From a virus, in the IMG/VR virus record IMGVR_UViG_3300010413_000156, positions 1-24,927 of that record: a stretch of 24,927 nt of DNA. One strand, given 5' to 3'. This document shows, piece after piece, positions 4,326 to 22,337 of the stretch. The position numbers and the translations under genes are program-made. Under the pieces are notes generated by a model. The model made no database searches and was not told where the DNA came from. It worked only from the letters and a program-made list of their open reading frames with translations. Position 1 is the first letter of the stretch; each line of letters opens with the position of its first letter.

Positions 4326-5096
4326 CTAAAATGTGATGCCGATGTATGGAAGTTCGCTGCGCATATGTGTGACTCCGGTATACGCAGCAGTAGGAATCTT
4401 CCGTGCCGCTTTGCCGTAGACTACTTCGTTCGGGAAATCGTCTGGTAACGGAAGGAATAAGAATCCGCCGCCTTGCTCCGCATGGCGTAAAAAAGGAAGC
4501 CAGTACGTTCTGTTCCATGCAGGGTCCAATACTCGCCAAGACATCTTGTTAGCGTGCGGTTTCCTTTTTGTAGAGATACCCAGAAGCAACGTAGTTTCGC
4601 TTAGGTTATTGGTGGACTCATACTGCTGCGCCATGGAGTCCGGAGTAAAACCTACGGATACATCCGCCGCTAAAGTCAACCTAGCCCCTAACATGAATCC
4701 GCCGACACTGGACGCCACGGATGCAGACACTACTTTGAACCGCCAATAACGCGCAGAAACAGAGGTAAACAATTTTAACACTGGTTCCGTAGCAGTAGGG
4801 GATACCGCTGTTCCAACATCCACTTCCTCTCCAGCCCATGCTCCAGTGGAGCTATACTGCAACAACACAGACGCGCCGTTTGTACCTAAGTTATGCGAGA
4901 ACATACCCCAAGCGTCTACAGACTTAGCGCTGCCGAGATCCGCATAAAAATAAGAAGTCCCAGCAGAATCAGGTTTCCAATAGTCCCAAGTAAGGTCGTC
5001 GTAAGCCCGTTCTTTTTCGTAGCCAACAGCTTCGCTTGACACACTTACGGTCGCGCTTGAAATCAAGTTGTTATATAGAATAACTGGGTACGACAT
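4326..5096 (-). CDS. distal-tail-like protein with discoidin-like N-terminal domain
   Basis: 256 aa, directly after the tape measure and overlapping its stop by one base (TAATG). Residues 1-140 (opening SYPVILYNNLISSATVSV, then YEKERAYDD, YWKP, YADLGSAKSVDAWG, GTNGASVLLQYSS) have the pattern of a galactose-binding/F5-8 type-C-like beta sandwich. The C-terminal half (NRTYWLPFLRHAEQGGGFLF) looks like the body of phage tail proteins that occupy the Dit position. It probably forms part of the tail-tip ring joining the tube to the hub and spikes, and the N-terminal domain could contact carbohydrate. The assignment rests on gene order and pattern recognition, so the exact role is moderate confidence. 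Confidence 0.65.
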   Translation of the reverse strand: MSYPVILYNNLISSATVSVSSEAVGYEKERAYDDLTWDYWKPDSAGTSYFYADLGSAKSVDAWGMFSHNLGTNGASVLLQYSSTGAWAGEEVDVGTAVSPTATEPVLKLFTSVSARYWRFKVVSASVASSVGGFMLGARLTLAADVSVGFTPDSMAQQYESTNNLSETTLLLGISTKRKPHANKMSWRVLDPAWNRTYWLPFLRHAEQGGGFLFLPLPDDFPNEVVYGKAARKIPTAAYTGVTHMRSELPYIGITF

Positions 5097-10120: not shown

Positions 10121-10611
10121 AAGGAGGGAATCTCCGTCACAAGACCTTCCGTGAACGTAAAGTCTACAGATATGTTGATGAGGCTTGCAGGACTTGTGTT
10201 GTTAGTTATACGAACAGCATACGTTTTAGCAGCATTTAGTATCCAATGGCCCGCAAGGATTCCGTCTGCCGGTACAGCCACAACTCCGGTTGACGTGGCG
10301 TATAACTCTACACTCTGCAATACTTCGCCACCTGTTACAGTTGCGCCGCCATATATTTTCATACGGTGTACATTAGTAGAGTCCCTACGCCTGTTCTTAG
10401 CGAAAGTCTGCGTTCCAGGAACAGTTATGGTCGGAGATTCTACGAGCTGAACAAGTACTGGACCAGAATCAACTTCCACAGAGATATTCTCAAAGACAAC
10501 GGCATCACCGTCCGGGATACCGACGAATGTCAAACTTCCACCTCCAGCAATGGACTGTACAGAGCTTAGAGAAAAGGAGCGTCCTTGCTGTAATGCACGA
10601 ACGTCGTGCAT
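10111..10611 (-). CDS. putative capsid decoration or head-associated protein
   Basis: 166 aa, almost entirely beta-strand in appearance (GGGSLTFVGIPDGDAVVFENISVEV, VLVQLVESPTITVPGTQ, YAVRITNNTSPASLINISVDFTF), with an Arg-rich stretch KNRRRD near residue 75. It lies two genes downstream of the major capsid gene and before the connectors, where decoration or head fibre proteins are common. I do not recognise a specific family, so the role is inferred from place and composition. The start overlaps the preceding stop as TAATG. Confidence 0.55.
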   Translation of the reverse strand: MHDVRALQQGRSFSLSSVQSIAGGGSLTFVGIPDGDAVVFENISVEVDSGPVLVQLVESPTITVPGTQTFAKNRRRDSTNVHRMKIYGGATVTGGEVLQSVELYATSTGVVAVPADGILAGHWILNAAKTYAVRITNNTSPASLINISVDFTFTEGLVTEIPSLWR

Positions 10612-13065: not shown

Positions 13066-14136
13066 TTAGTCTATTCCTGCTCTTGTGAATGCCAAAGGTT
13101 CAAGGTTCCTCATCTGTTCCAGTGTCAGCGGTTCAAACGATTTCCCTACTTGTAACTCTGCAAAACGATCTGCACCCAGCCCACCATTCCGCAATAATTT
13201 TCCCCTTGTAGGACCGAGTATATCGTCCTGTACTGCTTTAGGCTGGCGCTTCATCCATGAGTAATACGTTTCCTTAGCTGGAACCTGTACAACTTCTCCA
13301 GCCCTAGGATCCCTCGCGGACCTCGTCGCACCTTTCTGCAACACGCTGAACCTGGAATCCAGAACTGCGGTTGTAGTTGTACGGCAACGTATATGGAACG
13401 GAGGTCTAGGACCTTTATCCAATGGAAATTCCTTTCCATCTAAACTCCTGCATGTTTGCGACGTAGCGTCGTCCAACGTTGCTACAATACGCACACCTTT
13501 GACGACGTTACGGTTAGCGTCCCACGTTTGCTGCCTCGCCATATTAGTCGTATGCGCCAGCGCAGTACGCGCAATGGACTCCAAGTCCCGCCTGCTAGTA
13601 CCCAGCCACCCGCCTACACCGTTGAGGTCGCTAACTAGCTGCCCGGTAGTGCGCCCCTGTGCGTAAGCAAGGCGTATAGCGCCGTCCAGCCGCTGTAGGC
13701 GCTGCTTGCTCCAGCCCTCTAGGAAACCCTCCAACAATTGCCCTTGGTACGGCCCTGCGGCTTGTAGCGGCTTGCTGTATATGGCTGTGCGCAACTGTGC
13801 GTCGCTAGGTAGGTTAAAATCATATCCACTAAGCACGTTTCCTAAAGCCTTGACCTCGAATCCAACTTCATAGTCCGCAAGAGCCATAACCTGTTCGCGT
13901 ACAACATCCGCAACACCAGCATAAACTTTTTCCAAAGCACTGCGTATAGACGCCAGTTGCTTATTAAGCCGTGTTCTATTCCACTCCGTAATGTCCCCAT
14001 TCAAGCGAGACAGTATTGCACGCTCCATTTGTGTAAGGAACTTACTGTACTCCTTAACAGCCGCACTCTTATACCGCTCCAAATGGACGGCATGTCGCAC
14101 AGCTTGGTCTATAAGTTGGCTAGGCGTCGTAGGCAT
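13066..14136 (-). CDS. phage head morphogenesis protein, MuF / SPP1 gp7 family
   Basis: 356 aa. The N-terminal helical part (about 1-190) precedes the MuF core: RTALAHTTNMARQQTWDAN, then VRIVATLDDATSQTCRSLDG, then PPFHIRCRTTTTAV, with the conserved Thr-Leu-Asp-Asp, Cys and His-x-x-Cys-Arg residues. The C-terminal part has YYSWMKRQPKAVQDDILGPT and a closing LTLEQM motif. MuF-type proteins are minor head proteins linked to the portal, some injected with DNA. No toxin domain is attached. It overlaps the portal stop by one base (TAATG), as usual for portal-MuF pairs. Confidence 0.93.
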   Translation of the reverse strand: MPTTPSQLIDQAVRHAVHLERYKSAAVKEYSKFLTQMERAILSRLNGDITEWNRTRLNKQLASIRSALEKVYAGVADVVREQVMALADYEVGFEVKALGNVLSGYDFNLPSDAQLRTAIYSKPLQAAGPYQGQLLEGFLEGWSKQRLQRLDGAIRLAYAQGRTTGQLVSDLNGVGGWLGTSRRDLESIARTALAHTTNMARQQTWDANRNVVKGVRIVATLDDATSQTCRSLDGKEFPLDKGPRPPFHIRCRTTTTAVLDSRFSVLQKGATRSARDPRAGEVVQVPAKETYYSWMKRQPKAVQDDILGPTRGKLLRNGGLGADRFAELQVGKSFEPLTLEQMRNLEPLAFTRAGID

Positions 14137-15506
14137 TACCGTTGTCCAAGCTGGTCAGCGTAATCTTTAGCAGGTACATCCTCCTGGAAATACCCGTTGC
14201 GCTGCATGTACAGCACATAGTCCAGCGTAGGTACAGCTCCCGCAATAAAACCAGCAATCATCTCTTTAATCTCTGCCGGTGTTCCACTAGCTTTAGCGAA
14301 GTCCGTGTTTATCTCAAAAGTATTGTTCGCAACAGTAGCGCCCATATACTCCGCCATCCAGGACAGTGCTTTAGTGTAGGCATCGCTGATGTTTTGGCCC
14401 ATTAGAGACAACGGGCTATGCTGTACCTCGCGTTCGCTATCCGTCTGCGCCGCAGTCTTAGCAACCCCGCCCACAGTAAGCATACGCGCACCCAACCCAA
14501 CCATCATATCCACCTTGTCCAGCATAGCCTGTCTAACCGCTGGATTAGCAGGTGCGGCAGCAAAACCAAACTGCTCTCCACTAGGTACACCCAACAGTTC
14601 TCGCGAACCTATGTACTGCTTGTTGTTCTTCATGAGCTCAACATGGTCTTCCGTAATACCAGACATCCACGCTTGCGCCTGTCCGCAGTACCACACAGAG
14701 TCTTCGTAGTCTGCACTATTGCGGTAATGTGCGATGTTAAGGTCCACCAACGGCAACATAGCAGGCACATCCACATTCCAGTCGTTGTTCACAGCGCCAA
14801 TAAACGTAAACGGTATTTCATTCCACACCTGTCCATTAGCTTTACGCGGAATAATGGTATCTCCAGCAACCCACTTGTCGCTAACCTTGACCCACTTACG
14901 CTCCTTGTAAATGCCGTCCTCATCTATAAACAGCTCGCGCAAAATATCCATTTCTTTAACAGCATAGTCCTCGTGCGTGACCTCTACTTCACGCAACACA
15001 ACCAAGTTAAGGTAGACGTTAGAGCCCTTTGCTGTTACTGCCCAATTGATTATATTTTTTGGGTTATACAGCGTAACCGTTGCGTTATAATTACCGGACT
15101 GTACATCGGCCATGCTAAGCGCCGTATCTACAGGCGGGTACGCAACCAACAACCCGCAGCGGCTCTTACCTACTACGTGCCGCGCTGCTTGTTGTGCTTG
15201 CTGGTAAATGGACGTCCCAGCACCGTCTATATTTACACCAACATACTTCAGCGCGGTGTCTACATTAAGCGCGGGCTCCTTGCGGAACAACGTACCAACC
15301 ATGCCAGCACAAGTCTGCCCCGCCAATCCATAAAACACAGCGCGTTCTTGGTACTGCTCGTTGCGCTTTTTGTTTTCAGCACTGATATCCAGCGGGTTAA
15401 GCTCAACAAGGTAGTCGTCCACATCGTCCATGTCCAACACATCGTCGATACGTTTCCACTTCTTGTAAAACTTACTGTACTTCCCATGTTCAGCATCTAT
15501 AGCCAT
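14136..15506 (-). CDS. portal protein, DUF4055 type
   Basis: 456 aa. The order TerL, (Ntn-like gene), portal, MuF, scaffold, capsid places it. The sequence has the DUF4055 portal features YQERAVFYGLAGQTCAGMVG and LFRKEPAL near residues 52-80, RCGLLVAYPP near 116, a central beta region, and ALSWMAEYMGA near 382 leading to helical C-terminal segments. Twelve such subunits form the DNA gate of the head. A strong AGGAG lies 9 bases before the ATG. Confidence 0.93.
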   Translation of the reverse strand: MAIDAEHGKYSKFYKKWKRIDDVLDMDDVDDYLVELNPLDISAENKKRNEQYQERAVFYGLAGQTCAGMVGTLFRKEPALNVDTALKYVGVNIDGAGTSIYQQAQQAARHVVGKSRCGLLVAYPPVDTALSMADVQSGNYNATVTLYNPKNIINWAVTAKGSNVYLNLVVLREVEVTHEDYAVKEMDILRELFIDEDGIYKERKWVKVSDKWVAGDTIIPRKANGQVWNEIPFTFIGAVNNDWNVDVPAMLPLVDLNIAHYRNSADYEDSVWYCGQAQAWMSGITEDHVELMKNNKQYIGSRELLGVPSGEQFGFAAAPANPAVRQAMLDKVDMMVGLGARMLTVGGVAKTAAQTDSEREVQHSPLSLMGQNISDAYTKALSWMAEYMGATVANNTFEINTDFAKASGTPAEIKEMIAGFIAGAVPTLDYVLYMQRNGYFQEDVPAKDYADQLGQR

Positions 15507-15521: not shown

Positions 15522-15986
15522 TTAGTCGAAACTCACAGCATCTACGCCATTACCGCAGGAGCTATCAAACATACTAGCTATCTCCACCGCAGTCCTAGCA
15601 TCCTGTCCAAGGTATAGAGCAGCAATAGCACAACCTCTACCACTACCTTCTGCAAATATCTTTTCTTCGATTCGAATTGGAATCAGACCATTCTGGTACA
15701 GGAATATCCTGTGCGGCTGCCCTGCCTTATCGGCTTTTTCTATGAGTACGAAATCGACAGCTCTGGAACTTTCCAACTGTACACTAGGAAAATCTTCTTG
15801 CTTCCTACCGCAACGCACCCACTCGAACATCTGCAAAGCAACGACAGCTTCACCAGCAGCAGCGCACAACACTTGTTTGCCTTTTACTGTGTAGTGACGA
15901 ACTTTCGTCACAGTCACAATCCCTTCGCATCTACTCTGGCGTCTATCCGCAGCTAAACTCTTTCCATCCCAAGCAATAACAGTTAT
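15522..15986 (-). CDS. Ntn-hydrolase / proteasome beta (HslV)-like protein with apparent ATA start
   Basis: The conventional start (GTG at 15917) would cut off a clearly coding N-terminus. In the same frame, from 15986, the DNA reads ATA then TVIAWDGKSLAADRR, the start of phage Ntn-hydrolase-like proteins (usually Met-Thr-x-Ile-Ala-x-Asp-Gly). With Met removed, Thr1 would be the nucleophile, and Asp13 and Lys27 (VTKV) fit the proteasome Thr/Asp/Lys arrangement. The C-terminal GSGRGCAIAALYLGQDARTA, followed by Val-Glu-Ile-Ala, matches the conserved Gly-Ser-Gly helix region. The ATA overlaps the TerL stop as TAATA, where other junctions use TAATG. Length is 154 aa from ATA. It might be a maturation protease, but activity is unproven and the start needs experiment. 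Confidence 0.75.
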   Translation of the reverse strand: MTVIAWDGKSLAADRRQSRCEGIVTVTKVRHYTVKGKQVLCAAAGEAVVALQMFEWVRCGRKQEDFPSVQLESSRAVDFVLIEKADKAGQPHRIFLYQNGLIPIRIEEKIFAEGSGRGCAIAALYLGQDARTAVEIASMFDSSCGNGVDAVSFD

Positions 15987-17221
15987 TACATCGCACTCCC
16001 GATTCCAGTTATAAGTACAGGCTTTATGACGGGCATTTCCATAATAGTCAAATAGCCGAGCGCATCGTTGTGGTGATCGTGCCCTTGGGACTTATCCGGT
16101 TCCCCGTTCTTGTCGTAAGCCTGCTGTTCTAAACAGCTAGTAACGTTAGGCGCTAATGCCGTGTTTACGAATAGCCGTTGTTTGCTGAATGCTGTGTTGA
16201 CTGCAAGTATACGGTCCTTAACAAAAGGGTTCTTCTTATTCGCCTTAACACTAAACCCAGCCTGCCTCAACAAAGCCAAGTCTGTAGCACTAGCGTTAAC
16301 AGAGCGCCTACTGTCTCCACTAGCGTCCGGGTACATAGTAATACTATGCTGCGGATACTTTTCCTTAAGTACGTCTACTAAGCTAGGCGTGTCAAATACA
16401 TCTACTAACTCTCCAACAACATGAAACCCAGTATCCCGCTTAACGCATATGACACTAGACATATGTCCTACGTTAAAATCCTGTCCAATATAAAGCGGCT
16501 CTTTCTCTTCTATAGTTTCATAACTTCTGCAAACATCCCGGTCAAACGTGTTGTATACAGAACCCGACGTTAGGTTAACAAATTCTCCATTAAGGTAAGC
16601 AGCAATAAGCTGCTCCGGATACTGGTCCATGAGTGTAGGGATATAGTCCGCCTGCAAATTATGCGCATTACTATATGTACTCATCTGAACCAGCTTACTG
16701 TCTTTAAGGGGTTTCTGCTTGAACAACTGGTAAGTCGCCTTAAACCCCTCTGGCGTAGTAGTAATGTACAGTTGGTTCTTCTTTACCGTGCCGTACTTCA
16801 AGCGCATACGTGCGGACGCTTTACGAAATACTTCTAACGCTTTGTCTTTAGGCAGTATGTCAAATTCATCCAAAAATATATCTGCACACTCCCAACCAAC
16901 GATTTTAGATGGGTCCTCCATCGTGCGGCAGATTACTTTCCCTAGACCATACACGTAAATCGTATTCTCGCTCTTGTTTATAGCGTAGGGCCAACCAAGC
17001 TCCTCCAGCATTTCCTCTGCTTTAGGATAAAAGATGTCCCGCACTAGCGCGTATGTTGGAGCTAAGTATGCTTGGTGGAACCCTGGACGTTGTGCAAGAT
17101 TAGACAGAATGCGGATTAATGCCGCTTGTGTCTTCCCACTTCCGAACCCTGCTACCGCAGCGGTGTACTTAGCTTCGCTGTGGTAGAATTCGGACTGCGG
17201 TCCAGTAAGCTGTACTTTCAC
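15986..17221 (-). CDS. terL: terminase large subunit
   Basis: 411 aa. The ATPase half has Walker A GFGSGKT (residues 25-31), Walker B IFLDE (115-119) and coupling motif TTTPEG (154-159). The nuclease half has acidic residues in the expected places: QDFN (Asp248), YPDASGD (Asp299, Asp303) and HHNDALGY (Asp386). It translocates and cuts DNA at the portal. ATGA overlap with the upstream gene and near-overlap with the Ntn-like gene show tight coupling. Length and motifs are complete, with no sign of an intein or intron. Confidence 0.97.
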   Translation of the reverse strand: MKVQLTGPQSEFYHSEAKYTAAVAGFGSGKTQAALIRILSNLAQRPGFHQAYLAPTYALVRDIFYPKAEEMLEELGWPYAINKSENTIYVYGLGKVICRTMEDPSKIVGWECADIFLDEFDILPKDKALEVFRKASARMRLKYGTVKKNQLYITTTPEGFKATYQLFKQKPLKDSKLVQMSTYSNAHNLQADYIPTLMDQYPEQLIAAYLNGEFVNLTSGSVYNTFDRDVCRSYETIEEKEPLYIGQDFNVGHMSSVICVKRDTGFHVVGELVDVFDTPSLVDVLKEKYPQHSITMYPDASGDSRRSVNASATDLALLRQAGFSVKANKKNPFVKDRILAVNTAFSKQRLFVNTALAPNVTSCLEQQAYDKNGEPDKSQGHDHHNDALGYLTIMEMPVIKPVLITGIGSAM

Positions 17222-19641: not shown

Positions 19642-19947
19642 TTAGCGGGGTAGTGGGGACTGTTTGGGTATGCTTATCACCTGTGCAAAGATCTTACATT
19701 CCTTTATGAGACGCGGAGGTATTGTGTAGTTGATGTATTTGCGATAACCGCCGTGTGCGATGGTAGACACTACTCTAATTATGTCTATTACAGCGTTCCT
19801 TTTTATCTCGTATACGTGCTCCTTGTACACGAAATACATCAGGTAGTTGTCTGTATACACGTATACATTTTCCATCTCACACACATCCATACAAACGTCT
19901 GTACCTTTGTGTGCTATTTGTTGCTTAGTGTTAACTGTCCAAACCAT
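19642..19947 (-). CDS. tag-array protein A: N-terminal M-V-W-T-V-N-T-K-Q tag plus A-F family domain
   Basis: 101 aa, last gene of the array. It opens with MVWTVNTKQ, a copy of the tag shared by nine consecutive genes. After a linker comes the beta-rich family core ENVYVYTDNYLMYFVYKEHV followed by Tyr-Glu-Ile, then a basic C-terminal part (YRKYINYTIPPRLIKECKIF). The stop of gene B is one base before this ATG (TAAT-ATG), with GGGAA upstream. It has no membrane segment or catalytic motif I can recognise. The function is unknown. Paralogy with B-F is seen directly. Confidence 0.85.
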   Translation of the reverse strand: MVWTVNTKQQIAHKGTDVCMDVCEMENVYVYTDNYLMYFVYKEHVYEIKRNAVIDIIRVVSTIAHGGYRKYINYTIPPRLIKECKIFAQVISIPKQSPLPR

Positions 19948-19948
19948 A

Positions 19949-20233
19949 TTAAAATTCCCGTCTGTAGGTAGCTACATGCTGCAACTTACTTAAGTCTCTT
20001 GGCACGGAAGTCTTTGTATAACAGTGCTTTCCGTCTAGGATTTCATTTGCGATATATTCCCTCTGTCCGTTATCCATAGAATCTTCCTTATAGAACAAAT
20101 ACTGAACTCCATCCTTCACATATACAACCGTATCCTCTCCAATATAAACATCTACCCTACTCCTGACGCTTTCGGCAGGAACACTTACGGTAGGACATTC
20201 ACTACTTTGTTTATTCTGTACAGTCCAAGGCAT
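19949..20233 (-). CDS. tag-array protein B: M-P-W-T-V-Q-N-K-Q tag plus A-F family domain
   Basis: 94 aa. The frame is open to 20254, but the ATG at 20233 is chosen because it begins the shared tag (MPWTVQNKQ) and follows a GGGAAT ribosome-binding site. The linker is Ser/Pro/Val-rich. The core SRVDVYIGEDTVVYVKDGVQ, then Tyr-Leu-Phe-Tyr-Lys-Glu, aligns with A and C-F. The C-terminal half (GQREYIANEILDG) is helical and ends with RREF. Function unknown. The gap to gene C is 10 bases. Confidence 0.85.
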   Translation of the reverse strand: MPWTVQNKQSSECPTVSVPAESVRSRVDVYIGEDTVVYVKDGVQYLFYKEDSMDNGQREYIANEILDGKHCYTKTSVPRDLSKLQHVATYRREF

Positions 20234-20243
20234 AGTATATTCC

Positions 20244-20525
20244 CTAATAGTCAACAGTTACATCTATTACAGTCACAAACTGCATACCCGGCGTGCGTTC
20301 AAATTCCATACTTGCGTATTCTTTTGAATACAGGACAACCTGCTCAGCAAAGTAAAGCAGCTCTCCGCGGTCTGTAAGATCTACACGTGAAAACGGGAGG
20401 CAGACACCACGGTATACGAAATAGCAGACATCACCTTCCCTATATACACCAACCTCTTCCGTGCGCACACAAGCAGGCACAGGAGTAACAACATCTACAC
20501 GTTTATTGCTAACAACCCAAACCAT
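20244..20525 (-). CDS. tag-array protein C: M-V-W-V-V-S-N-K-R tag plus A-F family domain
   Basis: 93 aa from the ATG at 20525, which follows AAGGAG at ideal spacing. The frame runs open much farther upstream, but that part lies inside gene D. The tag is followed by a Val/Pro-rich linker and the core EEVGVYREGDVCYFVYRGVC, then Leu-Pro-Phe-Ser. A helix (ELLYFAEQVVLYSKEYA) follows, and a beta-like tail (QFVTVIDVTVDY). The general plan matches B, suggesting duplication and divergence. No known function. Confidence 0.85.
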   Translation of the reverse strand: MVWVVSNKRVDVVTPVPACVRTEEVGVYREGDVCYFVYRGVCLPFSRVDLTDRGELLYFAEQVVLYSKEYASMEFERTPGMQFVTVIDVTVDY

Positions 20526-20529
20526 AGTA

Positions 20530-20850
20530 TTACTCCTTAGGGAACCTGTACGTGTGTATGAGCTCCATGCCGCCAACACGGTCAGGGTCTGTTGAATATA
20601 GCTCATCGTCAGCTGCTCGCCTAGCAGCCCTAAGGAACCATTTTGGGTGCGTACCTGGAGTACGTCCACTACGAGAGAACCCGTAAGCCTTGCTATTACA
20701 CAGAAACACTATATACCTTTTGTTTTGGTAAACATGTACAATGTCGCACTCAGCATCTGTAGGCAGTGTATTATCCAGTACAGTACCTAGTTGACTTATG
20801 GAGTCTACAACTACCTCTTCCACAGCTTTAGTTATAACAACCCATACCAT
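20530..20850 (-). CDS. tag-array protein D: M-V-W-V-V-I-T-K-A tag plus A-F family domain
   Basis: 106 aa. The tag is the most eroded among A-F at its end (TKA instead of NKQ). After a longer acidic linker the core CDIVHVYQNKRYIVFLCNSK, then Ala-Tyr-Gly-Phe-Ser, aligns with the family. The C-terminal part is different from the other members: Arg-rich and helical (PKWFLRAARRAADDELY). The start follows AAAGGAA and is one base after the stop of E. Function unknown. Confidence 0.82.
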   Translation of the reverse strand: MVWVVITKAVEEVVVDSISQLGTVLDNTLPTDAECDIVHVYQNKRYIVFLCNSKAYGFSRSGRTPGTHPKWFLRAARRAADDELYSTDPDRVGGMELIHTYRFPKE

Positions 20851-20851
20851 A

Positions 20852-21217
20852 CTAGTGTTCCTTTTGTAGCAAGCTTGTATGTAACTCTTGTAATTCCAAA
20901 ATAGTCTGTTCTAACAATTCGGAATTAAACCAATGTACTTTCTTCTCATACTCGTCTAAACAAGGGACATCGTTCCAGGCAGAAAGCCTATGTGCAGCAG
21001 TTTTAGCAGCAATACGTCGCTCTGCCTGAATATTATTTTGCCGGATAAGCGTATCTGTAGGAAAACGTACACAGTAGGAGCCACACTTAAACCACGTATA
21101 AGGGGACCCTTCCTTGAAGTAAACATCCACCCTAATAAGGTCCTCTCCAATATCTACCTCGCAAGCAGTATTCTGTACAACTTGCGCGTGTTGTTTATTA
21201 CGTACTATCCAACCCAT
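20852..21217 (-). CDS. tag-array protein E: M-G-W-I-V-R-N-K-Q tag plus A-F family domain
   Basis: 121 aa, the longest member. The tag is exact (MGWIVRNKQ). The core is IRVDVYFKEGSPYTWFKCGS, then Tyr-Cys-Val-Arg-Phe. A long helical C-terminal extension follows (IQAERRIAAKTAAHRLSAW and LEQTILELQELHTSLLQKE), which could form a coiled coil and so oligomerise. The start overlaps gene F by 13 bases, so the two are translationally coupled. Unknown function. Confidence 0.85.
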   Translation of the reverse strand: MGWIVRNKQHAQVVQNTACEVDIGEDLIRVDVYFKEGSPYTWFKCGSYCVRFPTDTLIRQNNIQAERRIAAKTAAHRLSAWNDVPCLDEYEKKVHWFNSELLEQTILELQELHTSLLQKEH

Positions 21218-21495
21218 TTGTATTCTCCGTCATATAAGTAACTACGGCCAGTGAAACGAAGTTCTTCCTTTTCTGGGCACGGCAAGTAGGAATTAGTGTC
21301 CTGTATGAGATTGTGTGCGTAGTGTTCCTCTTTTTCTTCGCTACAAAAACCAAACGAATAAAACTTACCTTCGTATTTCAAATACTTGAGGTAACTGCCG
21401 TAGTCCATATACACATGCACCGTATGCACAGCACAGGGTTGCTCCTTCTGTGTAGCACAGGCACGTTCTTGCTTAGCCACTACTTTCCATCCCAT
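21205..21495 (-). CDS. tag-array protein F: M-G-W-K-V-V-A-K-Q tag plus A-F family domain
   Basis: 96 aa. The tag MGWKVVAKQ is followed by a Cys/Gln-rich linker and the family core HTVHVYMDYGSYLKYLKYEG, then Lys-Phe-Tyr-Ser-Phe-Gly-Phe. It ends in a short helical and beta region with several Glu, Cys and Tyr residues. The start lies within the 3' end of gene G (16-base overlap), after GGAG. This is the first A-F-type gene in transcription order. Unknown function. Confidence 0.85.
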   Translation of the reverse strand: MGWKVVAKQERACATQKEQPCAVHTVHVYMDYGSYLKYLKYEGKFYSFGFCSEEKEEHYAHNLIQDTNSYLPCPEKEELRFTGRSYLYDGEYKWVG

Positions 21496-21815
21496 ACAAC
21501 ATCTCCATTAGGCCCACGAAAGTTACCGCTTTTCGGCATGTATGCAAGCACATAACCAGATACCTTTATATTGTCCTTAGACTTAACACGCCTATACCAG
21601 TCTGCGCAAACAGGGAGACGTTTACTGACGAGCTCCTGCCTCCAATGTGCGTTGTCCACACGTGCAACAATGTTACGCTTGCGGCTCACAACGGCATATC
21701 CGCGCCTAGCAAGGAACTCGGCCTCCTGTTTAGGATCGCTAAACGTGACACCGAACTTTTCAGCCACAGCAGGACTACACTTTTTCATACCCGCATTAAC
21801 AACAATCCAAGCCAT
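21480..21815 (-). CDS. tag-array protein G: M-A-W-I-V-V-N-A-G tag on an unrelated body
   Basis: 111 aa from the ATG at 21815, which overlaps the stop of gene H (TAATG). The frame upstream to 21953 lies inside H. The start MAWIVVN keeps the first half of the tag. Then the body is unlike A-F: PAVAEKFGVTFSDPKQEAEF, LARRGYAVVSRKRNIVARVD, WRQELVSKRLPVCADWYRRV and SGYVLAYMPKSG. It is basic and mixed alpha/beta. I do not recognise the domain. Its place inside the array and its shared N-terminus argue that it belongs to the same system. Confidence 0.8.
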   Translation of the reverse strand: MAWIVVNAGMKKCSPAVAEKFGVTFSDPKQEAEFLARRGYAVVSRKRNIVARVDNAHWRQELVSKRLPVCADWYRRVKSKDNIKVSGYVLAYMPKSGNFRGPNGDVVWDGK

Positions 21816-22066
21816 TAGTCTACGACCTCGAACAGTTGAGACGGGTACATAAAATTCGTTCCTAGTAACCGGATACATACACCTTCTCGGAGAACAGTGA
21901 CAGACTTGACAGTATAATAGTGCCCGACGGTAAGACCTTCTTTCTTTGTCCATTGGTTGTGCTTAAGCAACTCAACAGTAGACCCGATGCGTAGACTGTT
22001 ATCTTCTGCGCTCGTTGTTTCTGGTACAGCAGTACACACAGTCTGTTTATTTGTTACAATCCACAT
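21815..22066 (-). CDS. tag-array protein H: M-W-I-V-T-N-K-Q tag on an SH3-like domain
   Basis: 83 aa. MWIVTNKQ is the tag with one residue fewer after Met. The linker is Thr/Ser-rich. From about residue 25 the sequence (LRIGSTVELLKHNQWTKKEG, LTVGHYYTVKSVTVLREGVC, FMYPSQLFEVV) has the strand and Gly pattern of small SH3/KOW-like phage proteins, in which a Leu-Thr-x-Gly-x-x-Tyr-x-Val segment is typical. The start follows the stop of gene I by one base. Body function unknown. Confidence 0.82.
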   Translation of the reverse strand: MWIVTNKQTVCTAVPETTSAEDNSLRIGSTVELLKHNQWTKKEGLTVGHYYTVKSVTVLREGVCIRLLGTNFMYPSQLFEVVD

Positions 22067-22067
22067 A

Positions 22068-22337
22068 TCACAACCATCCAAGTCTAAGGCACTGCAAGTT
22101 CGTAAGTTGCGCGGTATAATTCATAAAATCGTCCCACTGCTCATTACAGTGGAATACAACAAACACAGCGTTATGAACACCCGGGATCTCTACACGCTTC
22201 ACCCTTCCGTGAGAAGGTTTCCCACCGAAGTCAAGTGGATAAACAAACGTCACACGGTCTCCAACAGCTAAGTCCTCAACACGTAAAGCGCCATCGGGCG
22301 ATGTGCTAGATTGTGCCTTGTTTTGTACCACCCGCAT
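22068..22337 (-). CDS. tag-array protein I: M-R-V-V-Q-N-K tag on a conserved SH3-like phage domain
   Basis: 89 aa, first gene of the array, ATG at 22337 after AAGAGG. The opening MRVVQNKAQ aligns with gene H (MWIVTNKQ) but lacks Trp. The body (LAVGDRVTFVYPLDFGGKPS, HGRVKRVE, VFVVFHCNEQWDDFMNYTAQ, LRLGW) resembles a widespread phage family with a Gly-Asp-x-Val opening, Phe-Val-x-Phe/Tyr-x-Cys, and Tyr-Thr near the end. Members I recall usually start near the Val-Gly-Asp, so the tag looks like an added extension. Function of the family is unknown. Confidence 0.8.
   Translation of the reverse strand: MRVVQNKAQSSTSPDGALRVEDLAVGDRVTFVYPLDFGGKPSHGRVKRVEIPGVHNAVFVVFHCNEQWDDFMNYTAQLTNLQCLRLGWL

Follow-up and report, generated by a model that had tools for sequence, protein, structure and literature searches.

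The 24,927-nt stretch of viral DNA studied here (IMG/VR record IMGVR_UViG_3300010413_000156, positions 1 to 24,927; hereafter the window) contains a gene for an Ntn-hydrolase-like protein in which the codon preceding the catalytic threonine is ATA. This raises the question of where translation of the gene begins, and of whether AUA itself initiates, the true sequence is ATG, or the gene has been crippled, these being the three alternatives set out in a first-pass annotation of the DNA.

The gene and its start junction

All features at this locus lie on the minus strand. The Ntn-hydrolase gene is preceded by the terminase large subunit gene (terL, 15986-17221), its upstream partner at what appears to be a coupled junction, and is followed by a portal protein gene (14136-15506, phrog_145). 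The 3' end of terL reads ATG TAA (15991-15986), and the last A of its stop codon (TAA, 15986-15988) is shared with the ATA at 15986-15984, giving the junction TAATA. Codon 2 is ACT (15983-15981), encoding Thr, and when read from the ATA the frame stays open for 154 codons before a TAA at 15524-15522, with a translation that begins ITVIAWDGKSLAADRR; so read, the gene occupies 15522-15986. The first-pass annotation had described this same arrangement, an ATA start position with Thr next, within a span (15522-15989) that proved correct to within 3 bases, and it had set TAATA against the TAATG junction used elsewhere in this genome, which we did find in the window at 5096, 10611, and 14136. Its further statement that no ATG, GTG, or TTG lies ahead of the Thr holds for all 35 in-frame codons separating the ATA from the first upstream stop (16094). 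A start farther upstream inside terL was rejected, there being no in-frame candidate up to that stop. A Shine-Dalgarno-like GGAG sits within the 3' end of terL at 15996-15999, 9 nt before the ATA, a spacing suited to initiation. Conventional ORF calling places the start at a GTG (15915-15917), which gives a protein of 131 aa.

In a PHROG profile search, residues 2-154 of the protein matched phrog_1040 ("peptidase HslV family") with an E-value of 1e-19 and a score of 72 bits; Pfam and NCBIfam returned no match. The AlphaFold2 model has a pLDDT of 95.2, and its top Foldseek matches are 20S beta subunits, HslV, BPH, and Anbu, with BPH and HslV also matched, weakly, in a profile search of PDB sequences. 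T1, D13, and K27 (counting Thr as 1) are invariant in an alignment of 45 relatives, and we take these to be the positions of proteasome Thr1/Asp17/Lys33. The Ntn-hydrolase call of the first-pass annotation is thus supported by both the PHROG match and the predicted proteasome/HslV fold. Judging from its size, phage origin, and PHROG match, we assign the gene to the proteasome-like Ntn-hydrolases of PPH type, as an intact phage member, PPH being what short phage proteins of this kind are called in the literature (PMC8665760). In the isolate phiM5, too, the peptidase gene comes after TerL and before portal, its start overlapping the TerL stop by 1 nt (TGATG).

A protein search retrieved 80 relatives, in which the start position is occupied by ATG (72), GTG (6), ATC (1, contig L021), or ATT (1, contig L040). 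In every one of the 80, Thr follows the start-position codon and a conserved TVIAWDGK stands directly after it, in agreement with the earlier placement of the start beside Thr1. Translation beginning at GTG 15917, the first conventional in-frame start, would yield a Thr-less protein in which both Thr1 and Asp13 are lost and the PHROG score drops from 72 to 48 bits, and this start also conflicts with the position of TVIAWDGK in the relatives; we consider it highly improbable. None of the canonical in-frame starts would preserve the conserved N-terminus. Annotations should place the start of the gene at 15986, as calling it from the GTG forfeits the catalytic Thr and Asp.

Elsewhere in the window, a row of tandem small ORFs on the minus strand (19642-22081) shares the N-terminal motif M-x-W-x-V-x-N/T-K-Q, at 19947, 20233, 20525, 20850, 21217, 21495, 21815, and 22066. 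The row apparently consists of repeated duplicates; the two members scanned against PHROGs (21217 and 21495) had no match.

ATG in a near-identical contig

The comparison with close relatives that the first-pass annotation had suggested was made with contig L002 (IMGVR_UViG_3300009506_000518), which is 99.64% identical to the window across 5,857 bp, with 0 indels and 21 differences. L002 reads ATG where the window reads ATA, so that its junction is TAATG, and it shows no second difference inside the gene; the sequence upstream of the start is identical. An exact scan of IMG/VR found no further copies of the junction. Because L002 reads ATG at the same site, the gene very probably starts at 15986, and on this comparison the ATA is to be read as derived or as an error, and not as something that this phage species conserves. 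As the rest of the gene is unchanged in L002, the remainder of the ORF does not appear to be decaying. The change probably leaves the start where it is and makes it weaker.

The 21 differences are unevenly spread, 17 of them falling within a 156-bp section of portal (14601-14756) and 4 outside that cluster, the ATA/ATG site included. The cluster brings several amino-acid changes, at codons 290-295, and suggests that one of the two contigs carries a recombined tract or a local mixture of strains.

This pattern bears on the possibility that the ATA arose as an error of consensus or assembly, or that the assembler chose a base from a minor strain; the phage itself would then carry ATG, and its gene would be an ordinary one. 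That L002 carries ATG in an otherwise identical gene is what such an error would leave, and with 4 differences outside the cluster we estimate that a private start-codon change is about equally likely to be an error or real; the portal cluster, too, hints that strains were mixed or recombined in one contig. Against this, the lack of indels and the intact adjoining genes do not indicate a poor assembly, and AUH starts (AUA/AUC/AUU) occur in unrelated records of the family at a frequency far over any plausible consensus error rate (see below). We regard an error as a serious possibility, but one that falls well short of an even chance.

The reading that we prefer, and to which we give about an even chance in its entirety, is that the true start is at 15986, that the ancestral start was an ATG within a TAATG junction with terL, and that a single G-to-A transition produced the start codon of this record. 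If the base is real, ribosomes would begin at AUA using the initiator fMet-tRNA, presumably aided by the GGAG lying 9 nt before it and by reinitiation after termination at the TerL stop that overlaps it, with a yield expected to be well under that of AUG. The initiator tRNA carries fMet, and Thr as residue 2 favours removal of the Met; the product would not differ from that of an ATG start, with the Met removed and Thr1 exposed. A change of RNA structure at the junction was rejected, since the two versions are predicted to fold alike (-12.1 kcal/mol with ATA and -12.2 kcal/mol with ATG). The window and L002 do not differ upstream of the start, so no stronger Shine-Dalgarno sequence compensates, and since nothing offsets the weaker codon, a recent change seems to fit better than an adapted AUA start.

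The unchanged Shine-Dalgarno region would also suit a real base that effectively silences the gene, which would then be a dispensable accessory gene carrying a start-loss allele. In E. coli, AUA initiates poorly, reaching no more than 1% of AUG according to Hecht 2017 as quoted in PMC12864459, and a further family member with ATA (L084, described below) is frameshifted. However, the ORF in the window is without any other lesion, and the AUY starts of L040 and L021 precede full-length ORFs with a common 17-nt context. Silencing is in our view unlikely: if the A is real, weak initiation appears the more likely outcome, given an ORF that is intact in all other respects and the use of AUH by other members.

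AUH starts across the family

All TVIAWDGK-encoding stretches of IMG/VR were gathered in two scans, giving 109 distinct homologous contexts with the window included: 84 in a strict class plus 25 further ones, left from 27 listed alongside after removal of two non-homologues. The start position reads ATG in 97 of these, GTG in 7, TTG in 2, and ATA, ATC, and ATT in 1 each; CTG, ACG, AAG, and AGG were found in 0 of the 109. AUH starts therefore account for 3/109 (~3%), a figure that includes the window that raised the question and becomes 2/108 without it. Targeted AUH searches added a fourth intact AUH member, L205, with ATC, GGAG upstream, and no in-frame DTG before codon 36 of an otherwise full-length ORF; as L205 came from a directed search, 3/109 is the fairer figure. 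The targeted searches also returned L084, whose ATA-started frame is shifted after ~50 codons, which fits decay or poor assembly and marks it as a likely pseudogene or sequencing error. The PPH gene of L084 lies near 10237 (reverse strand), and its ATA overlaps the preceding stop codon as ATAA. A search of GTDB for AUH starts of this gene gave two pattern matches, neither homologous (one a short unrelated frame, the other internal to another protein), and all eleven diverse isolates checked have ATG (11/11).

A tree of 141 proteins requires, by parsimony, four changes to account for the four intact AUH members, and its well supported branches force AUH origins in at least 3 separate places. 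With a consensus error rate of <=1e-4 per base, which is our assumption, ~0.01 false AUH codons would be expected per 109 sequences, as against the 3 found. AUH in the family is therefore not merely error, although a single record such as the window could still be one. Because AUH starts recur elsewhere in the family, weak AUH initiation in the window is plausible, and we lean towards the A at 15984 being a real allele. Of the alternatives posed by the first-pass annotation, AUA initiation and a true ATG both retain substantial probability on these data, L002 showing ATG and AUH recurring in the family.

L040 (ATT) and L021 (ATC) have 17 identical bases, AAATGGAGGCGGCCTAT, running up to and into the start codon, with GGAGG 6 nt upstream of the start; elsewhere upstream their DNA cannot be aligned. 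In L040, whose ORF is otherwise full-length, the first in-frame DTG comes no earlier than codon 86, which leaves AUU as its sole credible start. Starting L021 at its GTG (codon 3) would lose Thr1. The motif was rejected as a conserved regulatory module before other genes, its third exact match (L273) lying inside an unrelated coding frame. In L083 (6584-6650) and L085 (4585-4651), two phages whose upstream DNA otherwise cannot be aligned, 17 bases are identical across the start region of the proteasome-like gene, with ATT and ATC starts.

It is conceivable, if on balance doubtful, that the PPH family repeatedly evolves AUH starts that act as a brake on the translation of a proteasome-like protease, with L040 and L021 sharing a conserved GGAGG-containing initiation region and the window AUA being a recent independent case. 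AUH starts escape gene callers that accept only ATG/GTG/TTG, and the fixed Thr1 exposes them: with Thr obligatory at residue 2, the start is set independently of the caller, and the family offers a direct estimate of AUH use in phages (~3% here).

Comparison with known systems

In S. aureus, the AUA starts of infC, ccpN, and citZ are translated, with ccpN and citZ AUA reporters reaching ~10-30% of AUG (PMC13009471), and in E. coli O104:H4 an ATG>ATA mutant of rpoS has RpoS down up to 5-fold but not abolished (PMC12864459). Stop codons that overlap a start codon support termination-reinitiation (PMC10666635). Gene callers do not offer non-AUG AUN codons as starts, which makes such starts difficult to recognise. 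The start in the window would resemble the natural non-AUG AUN starts of S. aureus infC, ccpN, and citZ (AUA) and cvfC1 (AUU), and of E. coli infC and pcnB (AUU), in being a third-position near-cognate codon that lowers expression. Those genes are cellular and most come with translation data, whereas the gene in the window belongs to a phage; the conserved S. aureus cases have extended Shine-Dalgarno motifs, whereas the window junction has a shorter GGAG in their place.

At the protein level, HslV (ClpQ), BPH, and 20S beta subunits are alike in predicted fold (Foldseek E ~1e-7, TM 0.6-0.75) and in their N-terminal Thr, and differ in showing ~20% identity and an rmsd of ~5 A to the window protein, which is shorter. 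With PPH/PHROG_1040, the short proteasome-like Ntn hydrolases of tailed phages (~140 residues; 153 here), the window protein shares the invariant Thr1/Asp/Lys, and the difference lies in the start codon, which is ATA here and ATG there.
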